Shown piece after piece: positions 5,309 to 22,100 of a stretch of DNA of 64,000 nt. The position numbers were made by a program, and so were the translations under genes. Positions within the stretch are counted from its first letter, which is position 1, and each line of letters starts with the position of its first letter. Source of the stretch: Picrophilus oshimae DSM 9789 (lineage in GTDB: Archaea > Thermoplasmatota > Thermoplasmata > Thermoplasmatales > Thermoplasmataceae); contig NZ_FWYE01000001.1 in assembly GCF_900176435.1 (NCBI RefSeq), forward strand, positions 124,001 to 188,000, in the 5' to 3' direction. A model generated the notes under the pieces. That model had not been told where the DNA came from. It saw only the letters and a list, made by a program, of their open reading frames with translations, and made no database searches.

Positions 5309-6310
5309 ATGCGGAATGACACCTCCGCGGGCCATGCCCAAACCGCCGAAAGGCTGATGGCGTCTACTCTTGCGGGTGGTGTCATGCTGGTGCTTGAAAC
5401 ATTAATACAGATAATTACGGTAATTTTTATATCGCCTTTAATAGCCGGTATCTACGAGAATTTAAAGAGCAAGGTTGAATTAAAAAAAGGGCCATCGGTA
5501 TTCCAGCCATATTATGACCTTTTTAAATACATTAAAAAGGAGACCATAGTACCCTACAATGCCGGATTTCTATTTATATACGGCTCATATCTTGTCTTTG
5601 CAATACTTGTATTAATATCATTTATAATACCTGTTGTCATTCCTGAGCCGGTATATTTCACGGCATCAGCAGATTTCCTTGGGGGTGCACTGCTATTTTC
5701 CCTTGCGTCATTTATAAAGATTCTTGGCTCTGTTGATTCCGGCAGCAACTATTCTGTAATGGGTGCTGCAAGGGCATCGTCTTTTACATACCTTGGTGAG
5801 GCAACATTAATAACGGTCTTCTTTGCAGTTGCCTTTATAACAAGAACTGATAATCCTTATGTAACAAACCATTACCTTGTAATGCATCCTTTTAGCTATT
5901 TAACGCTTTTACATATCTTCGCAAGCGTTGCATTCTTCATGGTCTTTTTATTCGAAACCGGAAGGATACCTGTCGAAAGCGAGGGCCTAATGGAACTTGG
6001 CATGATAGACGGTGCATTTAATTACGAGTACAGCGGCAAGCTACTGGCAATAAACAAATGGTCCGGTTATATGAAAAACTATCTTCTAGGCTCTGTTCTT
6101 TTAAACGTTTTTATATTTCCATGGTTTATGTTCTCCGGCAGGTTATTCTTTCTGGATGTTCCGGTGATGATATTAAAATGGCTTCTCTTAATGCTTATAC
6201 TGTTATTCATAGAAACAACGCTGTCAAAACTGAGGCTTTATAAGGTCCAGGACTTCCTTGCCACGGCCTTCACCCTTTCAATAGCATTCTTAATAGTATC
6301 GGTGATATAA
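5309..6310 (+). CDS. Hydrogenase-4-like membrane subunit, HyfC/NuoH type
   Basis: 333 residues, about eight helices. Family hallmarks are the quinone-chamber/coupling loop GPSVFQPYYDLFKYIKKE (61-78) and FETGRIPVESEGLMELGM (215-232), followed by NYEYSGKLLAINKW. These match the HyfC/EchB/NuoH subunit that links the redox arm to the antiporter-like subunits. The start at 5309 fits the TATA spacing, but the first 25 residues (MRNDTSAGHAQTAERLMAS...) are unlike the family, and their DNA is about 60% GC by hand count (55 of the first 92 bases). An internal ATG at 5384 gives a normal-looking N-terminus. The stop overlaps the next ATG by one base. Confidence 0.9.
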   Translation: MRNDTSAGHAQTAERLMASTLAGGVMLVLETLIQIITVIFISPLIAGIYENLKSKVELKKGPSVFQPYYDLFKYIKKETIVPYNAGFLFIYGSYLVFAILVLISFIIPVVIPEPVYFTASADFLGGALLFSLASFIKILGSVDSGSNYSVMGAARASSFTYLGEATLITVFFAVAFITRTDNPYVTNHYLVMHPFSYLTLLHIFASVAFFMVFLFETGRIPVESEGLMELGMIDGAFNYEYSGKLLAINKWSGYMKNYLLGSVLLNVFIFPWFMFSGRLFFLDVPVMILKWLLLMLILLFIETTLSKLRLYKVQDFLATAFTLSIAFLIVSVI

Positions 6311-6918
6311 TGATTTACATTTACATAATCTCGGCATTTATAATGATAGCTGCCCTTTACGTTCAGACACAGCAGTACATAAGGGCAATGATCAGGGGTA
6401 TTGTCATTGAGGCCATGCTTCTTGGAATTCTATCAATTTACATTGGCATAATTTTAAAGGAGCCTGATTTAATCATTTTAGGTATTTTAATTGTAATACT
6501 AAGAGGTTTTTTAATATCATACATGCTTGAGAGAAGAATACCTGGCATTAAGGAGATCTATCGTGAGAAGCACAGCGGTCTTGCATCTTCATTAATATTC
6601 TCGATAGTATTCTCTCTTGTGCCGGCATTCTTTATTTATTATTATATTTTTAATATATTATCAAATATCATAGTTTTCCCATTGATAATACTATTTTTGG
6701 CACTCTTTCTTTTTATATTCAGAAAGAGCACATTTGCACACGTTATGGCATACATAGAGGAGGAGAATGCCATGATACTCCTTGCAATCTTTATTATACC
6801 CGTGCCATTTATAATAGAGGCAAGCGTCCTTCTCGATGTCTTTGCATTTATAATAATAGCATTTATAGTAATAAAAGAAAAGACAAGGCATGAACCAATG
6901 GAGGAGCTGCGTGGTTGA
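6310..6918 (+). CDS. Hydrogenase-4-like membrane subunit, HyfE type
   Basis: 202 residues, almost wholly hydrophobic, with about six helices, an ILIVILRGFLISYMLERRI segment and the later conserved-type acidic helix YIEEENAMILLAIF. Length and position between the NuoH-like and antiporter-like genes identify it as the HyfE subunit, whose N-terminal half is NuoK-like. It has no cofactor. It starts by a one-base overlap with the preceding stop, so it is translationally coupled. Confidence 0.8.
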   Translation: MIYIYIISAFIMIAALYVQTQQYIRAMIRGIVIEAMLLGILSIYIGIILKEPDLIILGILIVILRGFLISYMLERRIPGIKEIYREKHSGLASSLIFSIVFSLVPAFFIYYYIFNILSNIIVFPLIILFLALFLFIFRKSTFAHVMAYIEEENAMILLAIFIIPVPFIIEASVLLDVFAFIIIAFIVIKEKTRHEPMEELRG

Positions 6919-6919
6919 G

Positions 6920-8230
6920 ATGATAATAGACATTATATTAATGTTAATGCCACTGATATCGATTATTTTTTATAAATACAATAATTATTCGTCATTTGCA
7001 TCCGGAATAATAGCGATGTTTTTATTGTTATTTATAAAAAATTCAGAGAATATATTTTTAATAGATTCAACATCGAGAATCTTTATATTTATGATACTTG
7101 CGATATACACTGCATCATCGATCTATGGAACAAAATATATAAAAAAATATGCATCATTTATATCATATAATACATATTTTTTGCTTAATTCATTGTTTGC
7201 ATTCACAATGCTTTTCACAGTCATGATAAACAACTATGGCTTCATGTGGGTTGGCATAGAGGGCACAACCATAAGCTCGGCACTCATGGTTATAACAGAG
7301 GGCACTGAAACGGCAAAGGAGGCGACCTGGCGTTATATAATAATCGTTTCGGCCGGCATTTCAATAGCATTTATTGCAATAATATTAATTTATTATTCCT
7401 TCCATACATTAACTGTATCATTAATAATCAATGAAAATAAAAAAAGCATACTAATTGCCCTGGCTGTTGCATTATCATTGATAGGCTTCGGCACAAAGGC
7501 CGGGATATTTCCAATGCATTCCTGGCTTCCCGATGCGCATAGTGAGGCACCTGCACCAACAAGTGCAATGTTCTCCGGTGTTTTGCTGCCAGTGGCACTT
7601 TACGTTGTTTATAGAATCTATGAAATTGATAGATTAAGGATGCTTTTTATAATATTTTCAATTACATCCATGGGATTTGCAGCCATATTTTTATCATACC
7701 AGACAAGGTACAAGAGAATGTTTGCATACTCAACGATGGAGAACATGAGCATGGCCCTTCTTGGCATTGCCCTTGGAGGCTATGCATTCCTCGGTGCAAT
7801 AATACTTTTACTTGCACACAGCTTTGGCAAGGCAGGGGCCTTCTTCTCATCCGGGAATATTCTTTATTACAGCGATAAAAAAAGCATATTTGATATTAAT
7901 TCAATTTACAAAAACAACAAGGTTCTTGGGATCTCGCTTTTACTATCGTCACTGGCGGTGACAGGAACACCTCCTTTTGGAACCTTCATAGGAGAGTTTC
8001 TTATAATCTATGGAATATTTAAATCCGGATTATGGTATCTTGCAATACCTGTTATTATATTTATCTTCATGGCATTTGTTTCGATAAACATGAACGTAAC
8101 TGGCATGATGCTTGGAGATGAAAACCATGATATTAAGATACCAAAGATCATGCTTTACACATCATTGATCATGCCTGTTATATCACTTATTATAGGACTT
8201 TACCTGGTGGTTTATCATGAGATACTATAG
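6920..8230 (+). CDS. Hydrogenase-4-like antiporter subunit, HyfF/NuoN type
   Basis: 436 residues and about 14 helices of the Mrp/NuoLMN proton-translocating family. Key residues are in place: Glu114 (WVGIEGTT), Lys193 in GTKAGIFPMHSWLPDAHSEAPAP, and Lys304 in AHSFGKAG. The ion path therefore looks intact. I start at the ATG at 6920, directly after the hyfE-like stop and behind a GGAGGAG at about 6900. A start at 6890 would overlap hyfE by 29 bases and add a polar MNQWRSCVVE. The C-terminus overlaps the large-subunit gene by 14 bases. Confidence 0.9.
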   Translation: MIIDIILMLMPLISIIFYKYNNYSSFASGIIAMFLLLFIKNSENIFLIDSTSRIFIFMILAIYTASSIYGTKYIKKYASFISYNTYFLLNSLFAFTMLFTVMINNYGFMWVGIEGTTISSALMVITEGTETAKEATWRYIIIVSAGISIAFIAIILIYYSFHTLTVSLIINENKKSILIALAVALSLIGFGTKAGIFPMHSWLPDAHSEAPAPTSAMFSGVLLPVALYVVYRIYEIDRLRMLFIIFSITSMGFAAIFLSYQTRYKRMFAYSTMENMSMALLGIALGGYAFLGAIILLLAHSFGKAGAFFSSGNILYYSDKKSIFDINSIYKNNKVLGISLLLSSLAVTGTPPFGTFIGEFLIIYGIFKSGLWYLAIPVIIFIFMAFVSINMNVTGMMLGDENHDIKIPKIMLYTSLIMPVISLIIGLYLVVYHEIL

Positions 8231-9362
8231 CTATGGTGGGAGATCCGGAAGGCTTATAGGTAAGGCTGGCGATCTTACAATTTATGCTAGAACCTACAAT
8301 TACGATGATATTAATCATGAAAATGAAAAAAGTACTGATTTTTCGTTCAATTTTTCATACGGACCATTGACAGGTGGTATACCAGAACCATTTAGATTTG
8401 ATATAAACACATCCGGTGAGAAAATAAATTACATAAAATATTACAATTACAAGATAAGAAACATAAAATTAAAGGGAATTAATATAAAAGATGCAATACC
8501 ATACATTGAAAGAATAAACGGAAACTTTGCAGCATCATACACTATATGCTTCTTAAGTTCTGTTATGGACGCGCTTGAAATTGAAATACCATATGAATTA
8601 AAGATGTACTATATTATTGAGATGGAGCTTGAAAGGATAAGAAATCATTTGTATGTACTTGCAAGGATGTGCGAGCCTGCAGGCTTTAACGTTCCGGCAA
8701 ACATGTTAATGCACATAAAGGAAAGATTTTCAAGGATAATAGATATAACCTTTGGGCACAGGTATTTCTTTGGTGTGAATCAGTTAAAATCAAAAAGACT
8801 TGATATCTACAAAATGATAAATGTATATAAAAACGAGATAAATGATATATATTTAAATCTCCTAAATTCAAGGCTTTTCACGGACAGACTTCAGGACAAT
8901 GGAAGGATTCTTGATGATGATATGACAGGCCCTGCTGCCAGGGCCGCAGGATATAAATATGACTCAAGATACGATTTTGATATATTTTACTATAATGATA
9001 CAGGCTATGAGATAAAAACAGATGATTCTGGAGATGCTATGTCAAGGTTCAATGTAAGGTTCAATGAGATCCTTAACTCCATTGATATAATAGAAAATGC
9101 CGAGAATAAAACAGGGGATTCATGCTATAATATATTAGATGGTTCCGGCACGGGATTAACAAGGGTTGAATCGCCATCTGGTGATGTCGCATTTTATCTT
9201 GAATTAAGCAATGGCGTTATAAAAGATTTGAAGATCCATACAGCCCTGGAAAGGAACATGAAAAGCTTTCTGAAATCATCAACCGGAACAATATTTACAG
9301 ATTTCCATTTTAATTTTGAAAGTTTTGGCCTCTGGGCGGCTGATGAGGTGAATATAATATGA
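8217..9362 (+). CDS. Hydrogenase large-subunit homologue lacking the Ni-Fe site (HyfG/NuoD type)
   Basis: 381 residues. The conserved core includes GPLTGGIPEPFRF, the helix ELERIRNHLYVLARMCEPAGF, and SRIIDITFGHRYFFG. At the normal N-terminal Ni motif ERICGIC the protein reads ERINGNF (residues 98-104), so both cysteines are gone (Asn101, Phe104). At the C-terminal DPCxxC it reads DFHFNF (362-367), with His364 and Phe367. All four Ni-binding cysteines are therefore absent and it cannot hold the NiFe centre. It also lacks the NuoC-like N-terminal domain of HycE. It resembles the NuoD-like subunits of hydrogenase-related (Ehr) complexes and is coupled to both neighbours by overlaps. Confidence 0.85.
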   Translation: MRYYSYGGRSGRLIGKAGDLTIYARTYNYDDINHENEKSTDFSFNFSYGPLTGGIPEPFRFDINTSGEKINYIKYYNYKIRNIKLKGINIKDAIPYIERINGNFAASYTICFLSSVMDALEIEIPYELKMYYIIEMELERIRNHLYVLARMCEPAGFNVPANMLMHIKERFSRIIDITFGHRYFFGVNQLKSKRLDIYKMINVYKNEINDIYLNLLNSRLFTDRLQDNGRILDDDMTGPAARAAGYKYDSRYDFDIFYYNDTGYEIKTDDSGDAMSRFNVRFNEILNSIDIIENAENKTGDSCYNILDGSGTGLTRVESPSGDVAFYLELSNGVIKDLKIHTALERNMKSFLKSSTGTIFTDFHFNFESFGLWAADEVNII

Positions 9363-9967
9363 ATATATGGTTTTTGAAGGGTATAAAATCCGGTATAAAA
9401 ACAGAGGATATATACAAAAGTGAATACAAACCACAGTGGTCAACTGAAATAACAGGCTCCGGGGATGTTAAATGCCCGACAAATGCAATATCAAACAATA
9501 CCTGGGATAGCAGAAGATGCATATACTGCAGGCGGTGCTATCCTGAATATAACATAAATGGAAACGATGATATATCTATAATATCAGGAAGCATAGATAA
9601 AAAATTTAGGAAATCGCTTAACATATACAGCATAGATTCAGGAACCTGCGGTGCATGCAATTCAGAGCTATTTTCAATATCAATACCTGAATACGATCTG
9701 ACAAGGTATCATATATTCTTTACAAACACACCAAGGCATGCCGATGCAATAATATTATCAGGAATATACAATGAATCCATGAAGGATGTAATAGATAATG
9801 CATTAGGTGCAATGCCAAAACCAGGGTACCTGATACTGCTTGGTGCCTGCGCCCTATCAGGAGGCATTATTGGTTCCGGGCATGAGATAAAAGCAGTGCT
9901 TGAAATACCAGGATGCCCGCCGAATCCATATACAATATTAAAGGGTCTTAGGAGGCTCATGCTATGA
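9359..9967 (+). CDS. Hydrogenase small-subunit homologue with half-ferredoxin, HyfI/NuoB type
   Basis: 202 residues. The C-terminal two thirds is a NuoB/HyfI domain with all four ligands of the proximal [4Fe-4S] cluster (equivalent to N2): Cys97 and Cys100 (TCGACNSE), Cys164 (LGACALSGG) and Cys186 (PGCPPNP). In front is a short segment with Cys39 (KCPTNAI) and Cys54-x2-Cys57-x2-Cys60 (CIYCRRC). That is the cluster-II half of a two-cluster ferredoxin, normally found in the separate HyfH/NuoI subunit. The protein can thus carry two clusters in series. It overlaps both neighbouring genes by four bases (ATGA). Confidence 0.86.
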   Translation: MNIWFLKGIKSGIKTEDIYKSEYKPQWSTEITGSGDVKCPTNAISNNTWDSRRCIYCRRCYPEYNINGNDDISIISGSIDKKFRKSLNIYSIDSGTCGACNSELFSISIPEYDLTRYHIFFTNTPRHADAIILSGIYNESMKDVIDNALGAMPKPGYLILLGACALSGGIIGSGHEIKAVLEIPGCPPNPYTILKGLRRLML

Positions 9968-11679
9968 TGTACATAATTTTATTTTTCATCATTGCGGCGC
10001 TGATCTCATTTATATTTAAAAGGACCGGATACATAATTTCAGTGATATCATCATTTTTATTGATAATATATGGCATAATAAATTTTTCATACCTGCACTT
10101 TTTTTACATAATATCAGGAACTGTCTGGGCACTGTCATCATGGTATTCAATATCATACGATGATGAAAAAGGGTATTTATCGATACTATACAATATTTCA
10201 ATACTTGGCATGGTCACGGTCCTAATATCAAATAATTATTTAATGTTCCTTGCAGGCTGGGAAACCATGTCCATTTCAGGCTATTTAATAATAGCATTAT
10301 ACAGCAATAAAAGCTATCCTGCATTTGTTTTTTCTGCGTTCAGCGAGATCAGCACCGTTCTTATAATAACAGGATTTGCATACGCCTATTATATCACGGG
10401 CACATTCAACTTCGTTATAATAAAATCAATTGTTCCATTGATAATGGTTTCATTTGGTTTTATGACAAAGATGGGCATGTTCCCTTTTATGATCAGCGAA
10501 TGGCTGCCCATAGGTCATGGCAATGCACCTGCAAACGCCTCCATAATACTAAGTGCAACCATGACGTTAATGGGTGTCTATGGAATCCTAAAAATGGCCA
10601 TGTTAAGTCCGTATAATATCTACCTTGGATACATATTAATGCTAATAGGCGCATTTACAGTGCTCTTTGCAGGTTTATATTCATACCTCTCAGACCACGT
10701 AAAGTCACTACCGGCATTCAGCACTGTTGAAAACAACGGGGGCATACTTGTGGCCCTTGGACTTTACATATCAGTAGATGATTCATTGATAAGGATCTTC
10801 TTCCTATCCACGGTTCTTGTCTTCTCAATGGCACATTCACTTGCAAAGACTGGTATATTCATGGTAAGCGGCAATGTTTCATCCAGGACGCATGAGTATT
10901 TATTTAACATAGAGGATAAAAAGAGCAGCATGACCTATATCGGGGCGGTAATCCTTGGAGCATCATTATCAGGATTGTATCCAACCATAGGAGGCGTGGC
11001 CACATGGATGCTCCTGGAATCATTATTTATGAATGCAATATATTCTGTTTATGGCGTTTATTCGATAATTATAGGTGCAATGATAGCACTTGGAGAGGGT
11101 CTTGTATCTGCTGCATATATAAAATACATAACGTTCTCACAGCTCTTCAGGAAAAAGGGCAGGGTAAAAATCAAAGAGCAACCGGTTATAATAACAGGCG
11201 CCCTTGTGATTATACTAAGCCTGCTCAGTGTTTTAATAATAAACAGGAATTTTATATCTGGATTTGAATCGATAGGCATAGCCAATAGTTTTTTAATAGA
11301 GTCAAGGTATAGCTCTGGTGACTTTGGCCTCATAGCGCCGGCTTATGCCATTGCAATAATAGCGATCTCATTTTTATTATCTTTAATAATATTCAAAAAG
11401 CCCAGAATAAGATATAATATTCCATGGAACAATGGATTATCATACTTTGAAAGATACAATTCCATAGCATTTACATCAAACATAAAGGCAATGCTGAGTA
11501 AATTAATAACTGAAAAAATAGATGTTTTCTGGGAGGTTATGATTTTAATATCTGTTGAATACAGGAAGTTTGCAAAAAAATTATTATATAAAATAATGTC
11601 CAGTTCAATGTCAATTTACATGCTTTACATGGTTCTCGGGCTTTTCTTTGCAATAATCTTTGTCTATATTTTTTATTAG
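9964..11679 (+). CDS. Hydrogenase-4-like antiporter subunit, HyfB/NuoL type
   Basis: 571 residues and about 15 helices. It has the proton-channel signatures of NuoL/HyfB: Glu100 in LAGWETMSISGY, Lys169 in FMTKMGMFPFMISEWLPIGHGNAPANAS, and a later lysine in AHSLAKTGIFMVSGNVSS. The C-terminal part (about 460 on) carries an amphipathic segment and a last helix, as in NuoL-type subunits. It is the second antiporter module of the complex and the last gene of the operon. The convergent hemerythrin-like gene ends right at its 3' end. Confidence 0.9.
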   Translation: MMYIILFFIIAALISFIFKRTGYIISVISSFLLIIYGIINFSYLHFFYIISGTVWALSSWYSISYDDEKGYLSILYNISILGMVTVLISNNYLMFLAGWETMSISGYLIIALYSNKSYPAFVFSAFSEISTVLIITGFAYAYYITGTFNFVIIKSIVPLIMVSFGFMTKMGMFPFMISEWLPIGHGNAPANASIILSATMTLMGVYGILKMAMLSPYNIYLGYILMLIGAFTVLFAGLYSYLSDHVKSLPAFSTVENNGGILVALGLYISVDDSLIRIFFLSTVLVFSMAHSLAKTGIFMVSGNVSSRTHEYLFNIEDKKSSMTYIGAVILGASLSGLYPTIGGVATWMLLESLFMNAIYSVYGVYSIIIGAMIALGEGLVSAAYIKYITFSQLFRKKGRVKIKEQPVIITGALVIILSLLSVLIINRNFISGFESIGIANSFLIESRYSSGDFGLIAPAYAIAIIAISFLLSLIIFKKPRIRYNIPWNNGLSYFERYNSIAFTSNIKAMLSKLITEKIDVFWEVMILISVEYRKFAKKLLYKIMSSSMSIYMLYMVLGLFFAIIFVYIFY

Positions 11680-12108
11680 TTATTTTCTTAGTTTAACACA
11701 GACCCAGTTTTCAGGCACAGTGTATTCCTCAAGTTTTATTGAATCGTCGTTGCCAAATGCCGGGTAGACATAATCCTCTTCCTGCTTATTATGTGCCCTT
11801 AATATGCTTATAATCTCATTTATGTATTTTTTATTATGTGCATCATTTATATTCCTGTCTATTCGATCCATGAGCATCCATATTGATGCATGCTCCATCT
11901 CCAGGCCTGATATTCTTGCAGGTTCAACTCCAAGCTTCAATGCCCGCGGAAACATTACCTCCTCCTCAACGTATATATGCCTTTTAAGTCCTTTCTCTAT
12001 CTCGCTGTATAAATTAACATCAGGGTTATTTTCCATGGATTCCAAAAGTTTTGACAGCATCTCATCAACGATTACATGGTCATTCTTCATCTCTGATTCG
12101 GTGTCCAT
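11680..12108 (-). CDS. Hemerythrin-like HHE domain protein
   Basis: 142 residues, all-helical. The repeated H-x-x-x-E pattern of the HHE cation-binding domain is complete: His11, His44 with Glu48 (RHIYVEEEVMFP), His73 (MEHASIW) and His106 with Glu110/111 (RAHNKQEEDYVYP). A non-haem di-iron site for O2, NO or peroxide sensing or protection is expected from the family. I use the ATG at 12108; the frame also allows a TTG six bases earlier. A TATA-like element lies at 12125-12136. It converges with the hydrogenase-4-like operon and abuts its last gene with no spacer. Confidence 0.85.
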   Translation of the reverse strand: MDTESEMKNDHVIVDEMLSKLLESMENNPDVNLYSEIEKGLKRHIYVEEEVMFPRALKLGVEPARISGLEMEHASIWMLMDRIDRNINDAHNKKYINEIISILRAHNKQEEDYVYPAFGNDDSIKLEEYTVPENWVCVKLRK

Positions 12109-12738
12109 GATCAAAAATTTTGCTATTTTATATAAATTTTTATTAAGAATATTAAGAAAAATTAACTTTCCAGGGCCATGATGATCATTTATAAAGATAT
12201 TAAAAGATACATCAATAAAAATACCTTATATTATATCCATGCGATCTTGGTTATTACATTTATGATCTTCATGAATTATGCATTTTAAATGGCCGGGATC
12301 TTTTCTTAGTAACATTGATATACATTGAATTTTTTAAATTCCATGTAATTATCATAAAATTTTTTACAGGTTTACCAGGCCTTATTATTTCAAATTATAA
12401 ATCTTTATGATTGTTCATTTACATTTAATAATTTAAATATTAAGGTATTACAGCATTATTTTAATCTGCTTTTATCATGACATTTGGAATGTTCTTTAAA
12501 ATTAGTTTGCGTTAATTTACATATGTTAATGATTATTGATATCTTAAATTAACGTCAATAAAAGAATATATAATATTTTTTTATGGATTTTTTACAACAT
12601 TAATTTTTAAGGTTTTCCAATGAAACATAAATATAATTATCATGTAAATTATGAATTTCTGATCATTTTTTATGGAATTTTTTACGGTTATTAACGAAAC
12701 AGACATAGACAAAATATAAATAGATGTTATATAATATA
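12109..12738. other. Long AT-rich spacer, possible 36-residue ORF
   Basis: This holds the promoter of the hemerythrin-like gene (TATA-like ATTTTATATAAA at 12125-12136) and that of the small RHH gene (12713-12722). Between them I see only AT-rich sequence. An ATG at 12178 opens a 36-codon frame to 12288 on the plus strand with one hydrophobic stretch (YYIHAILVITFMIFMNYAF). It has no convincing ribosome site or TATA spacing, so I do not call it a gene. No repeat or strong hairpin was noticed. Confidence 0.4.
12713..12722 (+). promoter_or_regulatory. TATA-like box of the small RHH gene
   Basis: AATATAAATA centred about 22 bases before the ATG at 12739, consistent with a leaderless transcript. 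Confidence 0.45.
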
Positions 12739-13859: not shown

Positions 13860-14210
13860 TTATTTTACAACAGGAAAATTTTGTTTTTTCCAGTTATCCA
13901 TGCCACCTTCGAGGTGTGCAAGATTTTTATAGCCCATTCTTGTTAACCTGTTTGCCGCAGCCCTGCTTCTATGACCTGTCTTGCATATTAATATAATCCT
14001 GGTGTTTTTTGGTATTTCCTTTTCTATATCACCCTCATGACCAAGAGGATAGTTTATTGCAGACTTTATATGACCAGAGGAATACTCATATTTTGTTCTA
14101 ACATCGATGATTATTGCATCCTTATTTTTTAATGATTCTATTACATCCTTTGGACCTAGTATTTCAAGATTTTCTGGATCCTTAAAATAATCTGTTATAA
14201 ATTCAAACAT
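13860..14210 (-). CDS. Single-domain rhodanese (sulfurtransferase)
   Basis: 116 residues, one rhodanese domain. The persulfide-forming cysteine is in the active loop CKTGHRS, and the flanking motifs IIDVRTKYEYSSGHIKSAINYPL and GYKNLAHLEGGMDNWKKQNFPV are typical. It probably moves sulfane sulfur or detoxifies sulfur species. It overlaps the upstream HemQ-like gene by one base, so the two are co-translated. With SOR elsewhere in the window, sulfur handling is a plausible context, but the direct partner is the haem protein. Confidence 0.9.
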   Translation of the reverse strand: MFEFITDYFKDPENLEILGPKDVIESLKNKDAIIIDVRTKYEYSSGHIKSAINYPLGHEGDIEKEIPKNTRIILICKTGHRSRAAANRLTRMGYKNLAHLEGGMDNWKKQNFPVVK

Positions 14211-14875
14211 TATAAAAGCAGCTCCCTTCCATTATAAATGCCAACGAAGATTGGCTCCTCCTTTATGATCCACTTCCTTGCAAGAACCTCTCTTAAATGC
14301 TCCGTTACATGGGACCATGCACTTAATGAGTCTGTTTCATACAAAACCACGAATTCCTGGTCACCAAGGCCAAAAGAGTATGTCGTGTATGATAGTATAT
14401 CCTGACCCTCCTTGTCGCTCCTGGCAGCACCTATATGCCCTGCCATGATCTTTCTTCTTTCATCGTAGTTTAAAAGGTACCATTCACGGTCCTTGCTCAT
14501 TGGATATGCTATAAAATATTTTTTTGGTTCCGTTTTTAATGTGTCCTCCAGCTTCTGGCCCTCCTTTATGTATGGCGATTCCTCATAAAGTGAGAGCATG
14601 CTGTACTGTGGATAACCATAGTTCCCTATTATTGCATTTAATCTTTCCTTTAATTTGACAATGTTCAATGGTTCATTTGATGATGCCCAGAATATAATAT
14701 CGCTATCATATCTCATTGATTTATAATATTTTACATTAATTAGATTGCCATTTTTTATATTTTCATCTATTTCTGAAATTATTGATGAATTTATATTCTG
14801 CTTTTCCTGTACTGGAAGCTGCCAGAATGATCCGTATAATTTGTAATTAAGTATATACATGTATATCATAGCCAT
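14210..14875 (-). CDS. Chlorite dismutase/HemQ-like haem protein
   Basis: 221 residues with the Cld-family core: AYPMSKDREWYLLNYDERRKIMAGHIGAARS, then YTTYSFGLGDQEFVVLYE. His147 aligns with the proximal haem ligand, and Tyr124 in YPMSK aligns with the catalytic tyrosine of coproheme decarboxylase (HemQ). The distal Gln/Arg position of characterised members appears to be a small residue, possibly Ser162 by hand alignment. That argues against chlorite dismutation. Coproheme decarboxylation or haem-peroxide chemistry is the likely role. A GTG three bases before the chosen ATG is an alternative start. It is coupled to the rhodanese gene. Confidence 0.78.
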   Translation of the reverse strand: MAMIYMYILNYKLYGSFWQLPVQEKQNINSSIISEIDENIKNGNLINVKYYKSMRYDSDIIFWASSNEPLNIVKLKERLNAIIGNYGYPQYSMLSLYEESPYIKEGQKLEDTLKTEPKKYFIAYPMSKDREWYLLNYDERRKIMAGHIGAARSDKEGQDILSYTTYSFGLGDQEFVVLYETDSLSAWSHVTEHLREVLARKWIIKEEPIFVGIYNGRELLL

Positions 14876-14913
14876 CACTTTAATAATTAATAATTCTCTT
14901 ATAAATTTATTTA

Positions 14914-19043: not shown

Positions 19044-22000
19044 TTAATCTATATTTAATTTTTTGTAGTTTTTCAGATCATCCATTATTATTTTTATTGC
19101 CTCATCAAGCTGTTTGTCGTTGCTGTTTAAAAAGTCCTGCGGCATGTTTTCAATGTATATATCAGGATCGACGCCGTAGTTCTCTATGCCGTACTTTACG
19201 CCTTTAAACCATGTTGCGAATTGAGGCTGGGTTACTGTTGTTCCATCTATTAATCTTATGTTTGGATTTATTCCCACAACGCCTCCCCAGGTCCTTGTGC
19301 CTATGACCTTTCCAAGCTTATATTCCTTAAAAACAAAGGTTCCTATATCACCGTCTGAACCTGCATACTCATTTGTTATTGCAATCATTGGCCCATCAAC
19401 CGAGTCCTCCGGATATGGTGTTATAACCCCACGCCTTGGTATATCATAGCCTATGCGCTTTCTTGCAAGCTTTTCCATTAAAAGCTGTGAAACAAAACCA
19501 CCGCCATTGAACCTCAGATCAACAATTAACCCGTCAAGCTTTGATTCCCTTGAGTAAAGTCTGAAGAACTCGTTGAAGCCGTTCATGCCCATGTCAGGTA
19601 TATGTATGTATCCTATTCTATTATCCGTCTTTTTATGTACATAGTCGCGGTTTCTTTCAACCCATGCACGGTATCTCAGATACTTTTCATCACGCATTGG
19701 CATTACATAGTCGCTGCATAATTTTCCTTCGTGCTCGTATACAATGTTAACCGGATCGGTAATATTAAGAAGTGCCCTGTCTATATTTGTTTTTTCATCA
19801 AGCTTAACTCCGTTTATTTCTATTATTGCATCACCCCTGGATATGTTTGTAAACAGCATTGGAGATTTCTCATTCTCGTTTGATACGTCGCCATAGTATA
19901 TCTCATCCACAATGTATTTACCATTTTTATAGGAATAATCTATGCCGAGTTTGCCAACAGGAACAGATTTAACATCTGTTATGTCTCCGCCAATTTCGTA
20001 TGAATGGGATGTTTCGTATTCACCCTGCATCTCCCTTATTAAATCAGAGAGCTCAAACCTTGTTCCTATTTTATCTATTAATTTTGCATACTTTTCATAT
20101 GGTTTTCTTCCAAGGGCCTCTACCTTTTCCGGATTCCAGAAGTTTTCCTGTATCAATTTGAATGCATCATAAAGCATGTTACGCCATTCATCTACAGGAT
20201 CTATCATTATTGATATGTTCTTTATTTTTATCTCCTCGGTTTTTTTATCGCCTGTATTTTTCTTTATATATGAATCCGGCTTTCTTATTAATAAATATTT
20301 CTTGTTCAATGATACTGAAAAGTCCATGACATGATCCTCATAGTCCTCCTCCTTCTTTTTTGCAAGGTCAAAGAATGATATCTTTCCGGTTCTCTTTTCA
20401 TTGCTGAATAGATAATACTTCATATATCCCTCAACAGGGAAGTGAAACAGTAGAACTCCGTTATCAACGGCAACCAGGGCCTCATAGTTCCTTGAATCCA
20501 CAGGGAAGGCCGTGCTCTTTTTATCAAGGTTATTTAGATCGTAATCACCAGGATTGTTCTCTGATAATGTTTCGATGAATGGTGGCCTTACACCTGATCT
20601 TACTGGAACGGCAAATGGTTTTGTTATATTCTGGTATCCCAGGTCGAATACAAGCTCATCCTGTACAGGATCAAGGGATCTTTTTGATAGATAGAATAAA
20701 TATGAATTATCGCTGCTAAATGATGGTGAAAAATCTATGTATCCCGGCGTTGTTACCTGGTGTATACTATCATTTACTGTATCATAGATCCTTATGGAGC
20801 TGCTGCCAACATCGCTTAAAAAGTACTTTTTCTCAGGATATGAGTATGCAAGCAGCCTTGAGTCTCCTGACCATGAGAAATCAAGGATCGCACCTGATTC
20901 ACTTTCATCAACCTTCTTTAAATTAAGCTGGTCATCAAGTATGTAAAGCGAGAACCTGTTATTTCCAATTGCTATCTTTTTACCATCCGGGGATATTACC
21001 ATTGATCTTATGATTCCGTCATTAAAATCCTTTTCATTTATTAATCTTCCATTGAAATCATGGAAAAGTATCTTGCCTTCCTTTTCATTGTAAATATATG
21101 ATACTATGCAGTCCTTTGAAAATACTGATATCTGGTTCTTCAATTTTTTTATATTAAATACAGGCCCACCGGATATACCAGATGAGTATACCTGCCCTCT
21201 GGAAACGGCAAGAAAACGCTTCCCATCCGGGCTTATATCATACGATGTGATGAAATCATCCATGGATATCGATTTCTGAAGGGATTTTAGCTTTGGTGCC
21301 TTTATATTTATATCAAGCTTTTTTATACCATTGCCCATTAAATAGAGATCACCGGCCATCTGAAATACTATGTTTTTACCGTCTGATCTTGCATTTCTTA
21401 CATAGTATTCATTGAAATCTGTTTCCTTTTTAATGTTTTTACCGTTTAAATCGCATGAATAAATATTGGCGGTGCCCTCATGATCCGATATAAAGTATAT
21501 TCTATTTGATACAATCATTGGTGAGTTTACATTTGAGTTAAGATCCACTATAATTTTAAAATCCCTGCCATTCTCAGAATAAAGTATCTTTCCCCTGGTG
21601 CCGCCCCTGTAATGCTTCCAGTGTGGCATGTCAACAGTGTTCCTGCCTATTAAGATACCATCACCGTTGTATATTATCTCCATGGCCGGTCCGAGGTTCA
21701 TTGGATACAGATTATTATTTTTTAATTCATATAGCATCGGGGAGCTAAATGGATAGTATGCATCTGTTGATATAACAGGGTTACCATCCTTTGTAAAACC
21801 TGCAACGGATGTGTACATCCTGCGGCTCGTGCTTCTTCCCTGTAAATATGTTACACGGCTTATCTCACCGGTATTTAATGATACATAATATATATCAGAA
21901 GAATCCGCGCTTTTTCCTGTCATGACGCGGAAGTAAACGCCCCTCTTATCAGGTGATATTCTCGGCATTGTAACAACACCCATGTTATATGTAAGCCTTG

Positions 22001-22100
22001 AAATCTCCTTTGTTGAAATATTATATTCCCAGAGGTCATCATCATTGACAAAAACAAGCAGATCATCTCTTATATCCGGATACATAAAATAACGCTGCAT
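19044..22100 (-). CDS. tri: Tricorn protease
   Basis: 1018 residues, close to the roughly 1070 of the Thermoplasma enzyme. The order is a six-bladed propeller, a seven-bladed propeller, a helical/PDZ region (about 720-830) and a tail-specific-protease-like catalytic domain. Catalytic residues by alignment are Ser698-His699 (ETSHSYE), nucleophile Ser915 with Asp916 (YAGSDGD), and Glu973 (IENYGVD). It cuts proteasome products into small peptides as a hexamer that can assemble into large capsids. The proteasome alpha gene is in the same window (30835-31539) but not in the same operon. The near absence of insertions supports a functional enzyme. Confidence 0.97.
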   Translation of the reverse strand: MQRYFMYPDIRDDLLVFVNDDDLWEYNISTKEISRLTYNMGVVTMPRISPDKRGVYFRVMTGKSADSSDIYYVSLNTGEISRVTYLQGRSTSRRMYTSVAGFTKDGNPVISTDAYYPFSSPMLYELKNNNLYPMNLGPAMEIIYNGDGILIGRNTVDMPHWKHYRGGTRGKILYSENGRDFKIIVDLNSNVNSPMIVSNRIYFISDHEGTANIYSCDLNGKNIKKETDFNEYYVRNARSDGKNIVFQMAGDLYLMGNGIKKLDINIKAPKLKSLQKSISMDDFITSYDISPDGKRFLAVSRGQVYSSGISGGPVFNIKKLKNQISVFSKDCIVSYIYNEKEGKILFHDFNGRLINEKDFNDGIIRSMVISPDGKKIAIGNNRFSLYILDDQLNLKKVDESESGAILDFSWSGDSRLLAYSYPEKKYFLSDVGSSSIRIYDTVNDSIHQVTTPGYIDFSPSFSSDNSYLFYLSKRSLDPVQDELVFDLGYQNITKPFAVPVRSGVRPPFIETLSENNPGDYDLNNLDKKSTAFPVDSRNYEALVAVDNGVLLFHFPVEGYMKYYLFSNEKRTGKISFFDLAKKKEEDYEDHVMDFSVSLNKKYLLIRKPDSYIKKNTGDKKTEEIKIKNISIMIDPVDEWRNMLYDAFKLIQENFWNPEKVEALGRKPYEKYAKLIDKIGTRFELSDLIREMQGEYETSHSYEIGGDITDVKSVPVGKLGIDYSYKNGKYIVDEIYYGDVSNENEKSPMLFTNISRGDAIIEINGVKLDEKTNIDRALLNITDPVNIVYEHEGKLCSDYVMPMRDEKYLRYRAWVERNRDYVHKKTDNRIGYIHIPDMGMNGFNEFFRLYSRESKLDGLIVDLRFNGGGFVSQLLMEKLARKRIGYDIPRRGVITPYPEDSVDGPMIAITNEYAGSDGDIGTFVFKEYKLGKVIGTRTWGGVVGINPNIRLIDGTTVTQPQFATWFKGVKYGIENYGVDPDIYIENMPQDFLNSNDKQLDEAIKIIMDDLKNYKKLNID

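Follow-up and report, generated by a model that had tools for sequence, protein, structure and literature searches.

What is a complex built on the plan of hydrogenase-4 for, once its nickel site has been lost? The question is raised by a locus of the acidophilic archaeon Picrophilus oshimae DSM 9789 (Thermoplasmatota; Thermoplasmatales), within a stretch of 64 000 nucleotides (hereafter the window) that spans positions 124001-188000 of contig 1 of a 1.53 Mb genome in six contigs. At 5309-11679 of the window, six overlapping plus-strand open reading frames (ORFs) follow one another in the order HyfC-HyfE-HyfF-LSU-SSU-HyfB, where LSU and SSU are the large and small hydrogenase-like subunits. 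They form a complete set of the type termed Ehr, for energy-converting-hydrogenase-related complexes, reportedly described by Coppi in 2005 and Marreiros in 2013. A preliminary description of the locus had recognized both this overlapping gene order and the likeness to Ehr. The former is borne out by ORF coordinates and by Pfam and NCBIfam profiles (for HyfE, by alignment with Escherichia coli HyfE), the latter by an LSU devoid of CxxC motifs that shares one operon with NuoB-, NuoH- and antiporter-like subunits. The Ni site is lost and yet the complex is kept by almost all close relatives; thus, it is probably a proton pump that passes its electrons to an acceptor other than hydrogen.

Lost nickel ligands and retained electron and ion paths

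Alignment of the LSU with HycE, HyfG and further NiFe enzymes, and with NuoD, puts N101, F104, W373 and D376 where HycE has its four Ni ligands (C241, C244, C531 and C534). The first motif, L1, had been read correctly in the preliminary description as ERINGNF (positions 98-104, against ERVCGIC). The proposed replacement of DPCxxC by DFHFNF was misplaced, however, as DFHFNF pairs with SDAPLI, which precedes the DPCxxC motif by ten residues, whereas DPCYSC (HycE 529-534) corresponds to GLWAAD; the claim that all four Ni ligands are gone holds despite this correction. Across 37 archaeal sequences, including that of the window, N, H, W and E predominate at the four sites. A single Cys stands at the first position in three relatives and the other three positions are free of Cys, the fourth being acidic in all 37, as in NuoD, a feature that the preliminary description did not contain. 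Bacterial-type relatives (the GPVHAG group) carry Ser, Ser/Asn/Thr, Ser and Gly at the same positions, unlike the archaeal sequences, which indicates that the pocket varies among subgroups.

Around the former metal site, conservation is selective. Glu57 is present in 37/37 archaeal Ehr and in all nine NiFe rows of the alignment, the column being G in NuoD, and this glutamate of the beta1-beta2 loop (MbhL Glu21, HycE E193) sits at the site of the quinone-protonating His of complex I (PMC11228991; PMC9474812). R242 and E284 (HycE R395 and E437) are likewise retained in every one of the 37 archaeal sequences. The canopy residues HycE R478 and D529 are replaced by S321 and G371 (a column that is G in 37/37), and the His and Tyr of the complex I quinone site are missing, their positions being taken by Pro56/Glu57 and Gly102. 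As Glu57, R242 and E284 are kept while the Ni ligands and the canopy are changed, the pocket has been remade around a retained proton donor. An AlphaFold2 model of the LSU built from 26 sequences (pLDDT 87.6, pTM 0.88) found its best Protein Data Bank (PDB) match in E. coli HycE (7z0s_E, E 4.5e-20, TM 0.84), followed by 49-kDa subunits of complex I.

The electron path leading to this pocket is intact. The proximal-cluster cysteines, already reported as retained, were placed by alignment at Cys97, 100, 164 and 186 of the SSU, which also carries an N-terminal one-cluster ferredoxin domain (Cys39, 54, 57 and 60) that had escaped notice; all eight Cys are invariant in 27 sequences. The SSU model (pLDDT 86.7) has HycG as its best PDB match, and its N-terminal domain gave no strong structural match of its own among the matches listed.

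The same holds for the membrane arm. The E-channel residues R155, E164, E229 and E240 of HyfC (NuoH R148, E157, E220 and E228) are identical in 29 of 29 aligned sequences, E. coli NuoH included. The HyfE-like subunit, for which Pfam and NCBIfam profiles give no match, retains E152 in 26 and E170 in 25 of 27 aligned sequences. In HyfF, E116, K195, K267, H302 and E361 correspond to NuoM E144, K234, K312, H348 and E407, and in HyfB, E100, K169 and K295 (kept in 27/27) correspond to NuoL E144, K229 and K342. The Glu100/Lys169 pair previously named for HyfB is therefore the right one (NuoL E144/K229), and the pair named for HyfF as Glu114/Lys193 is present (NuoM E144/K234) but was numbered from the ATG at 6920, becoming E116/K195 when counted from 6914. 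There are two antiporter-like subunits plus HyfE, and not the complex I set of three plus NuoJ, NuoK and NuoA.

Table 1. Genes of the six-gene operon and key sites of its large subunit (window coordinates).
Feature	Position	Strand	Details
HyfC/HycD/NuoH-like membrane subunit	5309..6310	+	333 aa; Pfam NADHdh 9e-29
HyfE-like membrane subunit	6310..6918	+	202 aa; aligns with E. coli HyfE
HyfF antiporter-like subunit	6914..8230	+	438 aa from ATG 6914; Proton_antipo_M; NF005042 676 bits, cut-off 437
HyfG/HycE/NuoD-like LSU, without Ni ligands	8217..9362	+	381 aa; Complex1_49kDa
Glu57 of LSU, beta1-beta2 loop proton-donor glutamate (HycE Glu193 / MbhL Glu21)	8385..8387	+	alignment
L1 motif ERINGNF, LSU 98-104, replacing ERVCGIC	8508..8528	+	alignment
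L2 position GLWAAD, LSU 371-376, replacing DPCxxC	9327..9344	+	alignment
HyfI/NuoB-like SSU	9359..9967	+	202 aa; Oxidored_q6; ferredoxin domain and proximal-cluster Cys
HyfB antiporter-like subunit	9964..11679	+	571 aa; Proton_antipo_M; NF005046 776 bits, cut-off 460

Conservation, hydrogenase machinery and origin

Thirty-seven archaeal genomes of the same family, that of P. oshimae included, were compared. The LSU is present in 21 of the 22 that are at least 90% complete (P. oshimae included), G006 being the one without it. The order C-E-F-G-I-B is the same in all 31 relatives whose cluster is uncut by a contig end; named relatives include a Euryarchaeota archaeon (L033) and a Ca. Thermoplasmatota archaeon (L034). 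This constancy, together with the retention of key residues, indicates that the complex is not a decayed hydrogenase. The earlier proposal that selection maintains the path of electrons and ions, H2 chemistry being gone, agrees with the gene order kept in the 31 relatives and with the conservation of the Fe-S cysteines, E-channel and antiporter Glu/Lys. Among these 31, the LSU frame is split in L055 (the second copy of G003) and in L059 (G034), through either decay or assembly error. Two clusters of the six-gene type occur in each of four genomes: G003 (L053/L055), G032 (L061/L064), G055 (L063/L068) and G257 (L128/L130).

Neither of the hallmarks of a group 4 [NiFe] hydrogenase, four Cys ligands and Hyp maturation, was found. 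In the P. oshimae genome neither NiFeSe_Hases nor HypD had a match, and HypD above cut-off was detected in 0/37 same-family genomes. Its only PF00346 proteins are the Ehr LSU and NuoD, and a scan of the contigs recovered only two related loci. Thus a second large subunit with intact CxxC motifs that would pair with the operon, the finding named at the outset as fatal to the loss of H2 chemistry, is ruled out by the absence of any NiFe large subunit or HypD.

Other families of the archaeal class also carry the six-gene complex. HypD was found in three families (f4, f5 and f6), and in f5 there is also a distinct large subunit (L071) whose CxxC motifs are intact. Genomes of family f5 hold Ehr of a deep branch; G044 (L066, L072) has in addition a second, Mbh-like cluster and HypD, and in G040 (L069) the SSU ferredoxin domain of the Ehr is degenerate.

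Searches of plasmids with tblastn retrieved the six genes in the order C-E-F-G-I-B in Mycobacterium branderi, I-B-C-E-F-G in Rhodococcus WAY2 and B-C-E-F-G-I in Methylovirgula and Rhizobium; all three are circular permutations of a single order. The gene names of M. tuberculosis Rv0082-Rv0087 (PMC6901956) suggest the same six genes, a match by names alone. Maximum-likelihood analysis united the 46 Ni-less LSUs of six-gene clusters, without exception, in a single clade (100/100) whose neighbour is HycE/HyfG; the exact position of the long-branched M. branderi LSU is uncertain. The tree takes NuoD as outgroup, and hence assumes its root, and includes neither MBS nor any of the proteins first called Ehr, such as those of Geobacter. 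With the root so assumed, the simplest reading would be a single loss of the Ni site for all six-gene Ni-less LSUs.

Further details come from plasmid-borne loci. In the M. branderi SSU (L077, 10075-10869), none of the four proximal-cluster Cys remains (GSNGSD, GTDA, PGAP), while those of the ferredoxin domain are kept; the SSU of Rhodococcus WAY2 (L132) has the proximal Cys and no ferredoxin domain. This may be an actinobacterial branch that is redox-dead. In Azospirillum lipoferum (L079, 1365-10080), an aldehyde:ferredoxin oxidoreductase and a MoaD-like gene adjoin a group-4-type complex with both CxxC motifs intact in its large subunit, possibly an aldehyde-linked hydrogenase. A Nuo-like operon of Paracoccus aerodenitrificans (L081, 7523-16392) comprises A, a long fused ORF annotated as heavy metal-binding, H, J, K, two antiporter-like genes and N; its large subunit is very divergent (branch length 3.9), with neither Ni nor quinone motifs.

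Electron donor, acceptor and rival explanations

No conserved neighbour of the operon emerged when 247 flanking ORFs from 32 loci were clustered, as no family occurred in more than five loci; those recurring in up to five resemble housekeeping genes. In the window, a convergent gene for a hemerythrin-domain protein (11680-12114) directly follows the operon, and a chlorite-dismutase-family protein is encoded nearby (14210-14878), as is, further on, a Tricorn-type protease (19044-22100), in line with membership of the Thermoplasmatota. The hemerythrin protein and a divergent acyl-CoA dehydrogenase beside the operon were considered as partners and rejected, since in other genomes the operon does not have them as constant neighbours. 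NuoF was not found in the P. oshimae genome, which encodes a Nuo complex and two POR-type enzymes (2-oxoacid:ferredoxin oxidoreductases); with no NuoF and two such enzymes, ferredoxin would be the obvious reductant. The guess made earlier that ferredoxin may be the donor thus gains strength, from these enzymes, the missing NuoF and the ferredoxin-like domain of the SSU.

The reading that we favour, and to which we give about an even chance of being right, is that the complex would be a Ni-free, proton-pumping descendant of hydrogenase-3/4, coupling electron transfer from ferredoxin to a quinone-like acceptor with proton pumping. Ferredoxin reduced by the 2-oxoacid oxidoreductases would pass electrons to the ferredoxin domain fused to the SSU and on to the proximal cluster. 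From there the electrons would reduce an organic acceptor in the remodelled [NiFe] pocket, for which a menaquinone-type quinone is the likeliest candidate. Glu57 would take the role of complex I His38, and loop movement would drive protons outward through the two antiporter-like subunits. The net result would be a second ferredoxin:quinone oxidoreductase beside Nuo, with two pumps rather than three, whose direction in vivo could be reversed by a large proton gradient. A quinone is preferred because it is the organic acceptor that this fold is known to serve, in complex I, because the loop proton donor is kept and the membrane arm complete, and because the complex occurs in aerobes. Four points weigh on the other side: the equivalent of complex I Tyr87 is Gly102; the canopy residues, important for quinone reduction in complex I, are Ser321 and Gly371; the choice of ferredoxin as donor is drawn from the SSU domain; and the Nuo complex of the same genome could already do this job.

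A more tentative extension, which we consider possible but rather doubtful, is that a [NiFe] pocket was here converted to a quinone site for a second time, independently of complex I, at the same loop and position, with Glu for His and with the donor ferredoxin domain fused to the SSU. If this were true, this Ehr type would represent a minimal six-subunit ferredoxin:quinone proton pump across archaea and bacteria.

Among the alternatives, reverse operation would have the proton gradient and quinol produce reduced ferredoxin. Relatives of complex I are reversible and the pH gradient of acidophiles is very large. Ammonia oxidisers, which depend on electrons flowing in reverse, possess Ehr as well (PMC10432482; PMC10284858). 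Nevertheless, the ferredoxin-producing POR enzymes make it more likely that ferredoxin is in surplus, and we regard this direction as unlikely. It is also improbable that the complex serves pH homeostasis by moving ions, as a transporter or antiporter, independently of any redox reaction, with hydrogenase-like subunits that are structural only: the eight SSU cysteines and Glu57 are invariant in the archaeal family, which is unexpected where no electrons flow, even if the antiporter-like subunits are fully conserved and the M. branderi operon, kept despite the loss of its proximal Cys, indicates that the module can persist without that wire.

Little credence can be given to a formate-driven complex, in which a separately encoded formate dehydrogenase would dock as in formate hydrogenlyase (FHL), with quinone replacing protons as acceptor. 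Such a pairing has been proposed for other lineages (PMC6349859), and P. oshimae has one molybdopterin oxidoreductase (a 982 aa ORF). This gene is not near the operon, however, which lacks HycB/HycF-type linkers. Moreover, five Ehr-positive genomes at least 94% complete (G003, G013, G019, G029 and G032) have no molybdopterin oxidoreductase, whereas in G006 (99% complete) and further genomes such an enzyme is present and Ehr absent, which rules out formate dehydrogenase as an obligate partner. A sulfane or polysulfide reductase like MBS of Pyrococcus furiosus, in which the Ni-free pocket would reduce a sulfur substrate, is hardly better placed. In its favour, sulfur respiration is known in Thermoplasma. 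MBS is indeed a Ni-free relative retaining the acidic residue of the beta1-beta2 loop (PMC9474812), but the LSU matches MBH and FHL (E 2e-19 and 2e-16) far better than MBS (6u8y_L, 3.5e-7), its clade falls beside HycE/HyfG in a tree without MBS, and aerobic rhizobia, Methylovirgula and Cupriavidus carry this six-gene complex too. Finally, the idea of a cryptic [NiFe] hydrogenase, relying on unusual ligands or on another large subunit that is intact, can practically be dismissed in spite of the hydrogenase-4-like subunit set, given the missing NiFe large subunits and HypD and the three Cys-free ligand positions.

Comparison with known systems

Such complexes are known from acidophilic archaea, ammonia oxidisers, rhizobia and actinomycetes; no function is demonstrated for them in the Ehr literature cited here, that of other lineages being described as unknown (PMC6349859; PMC10432482; PMC10284858). 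The residue map offers direct test sites (Glu57, the N101/F104/W373/D376 pocket and the ferredoxin domain), and the six genes make up a closed unit compact enough to be expressed whole. Should the complex prove to be a quinone reductase, it would illustrate how a metal site that reacts with hydrogen can become a quinone site, the change held to have given rise to respiratory complex I.

Part of this picture is already published, namely the Ni loss in Thermoplasmatales of acid mine drainage (AMD) and a six-gene Ehr in Sulfobacillus. AMD Thermoplasmatales carry 'putative group 4 hydrogenases' without Ni motifs (Yelton 2013; PMC3750248) and Ferroplasma acidiphilum a six-gene Mrp/hydrogenase-related set (FAD_0579-0584; PMC5473848), with the same archaeal order, both Ni motifs absent and no essential difference from the window; the passages considered here hold neither a residue-level account nor a partner test. 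In Sulfobacillus, syntenic homologues of nuoH, nuoL, HyfE and HyfB form a six-gene Ehr without Ni motifs (Justice 2014; PMC4378227), a bacterial set whose likeness to the window operon is one of published description, not of sequence. New here are the corrected L2 motif and residue map, the retained Glu57, the ferredoxin domain fused to the SSU, the clade shared by archaea and bacteria, the lack of HypD, and the finding that neither formate dehydrogenase nor any conserved neighbour is an obligate partner.

With Ehr in general the complex shares a complex I-like membrane arm, hydrogenase-like LSU and SSU and the absence of CxxC motifs; it differs in its SSU-fused one-cluster ferredoxin domain, in having no separate HyfH/NuoI and in an LSU without the NuoC-like N-terminal domain. 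E. coli hydrogenase-4 and FHL (HyfG, HycE) are its nearest Ni-containing sisters in the tree and its best fold match in the PDB, but possess Ni ligands, canopy Arg/Asp, HyfH/HycF, HycB, FdhF and Hyp maturation. With complex I (Nuo) it has in common homologous subunits, an acid at the fourth Ni-ligand position and the proton path, whereas it replaces the quinone-site His/Tyr by the beta1-beta2 Glu and makes do with two antiporter subunits.

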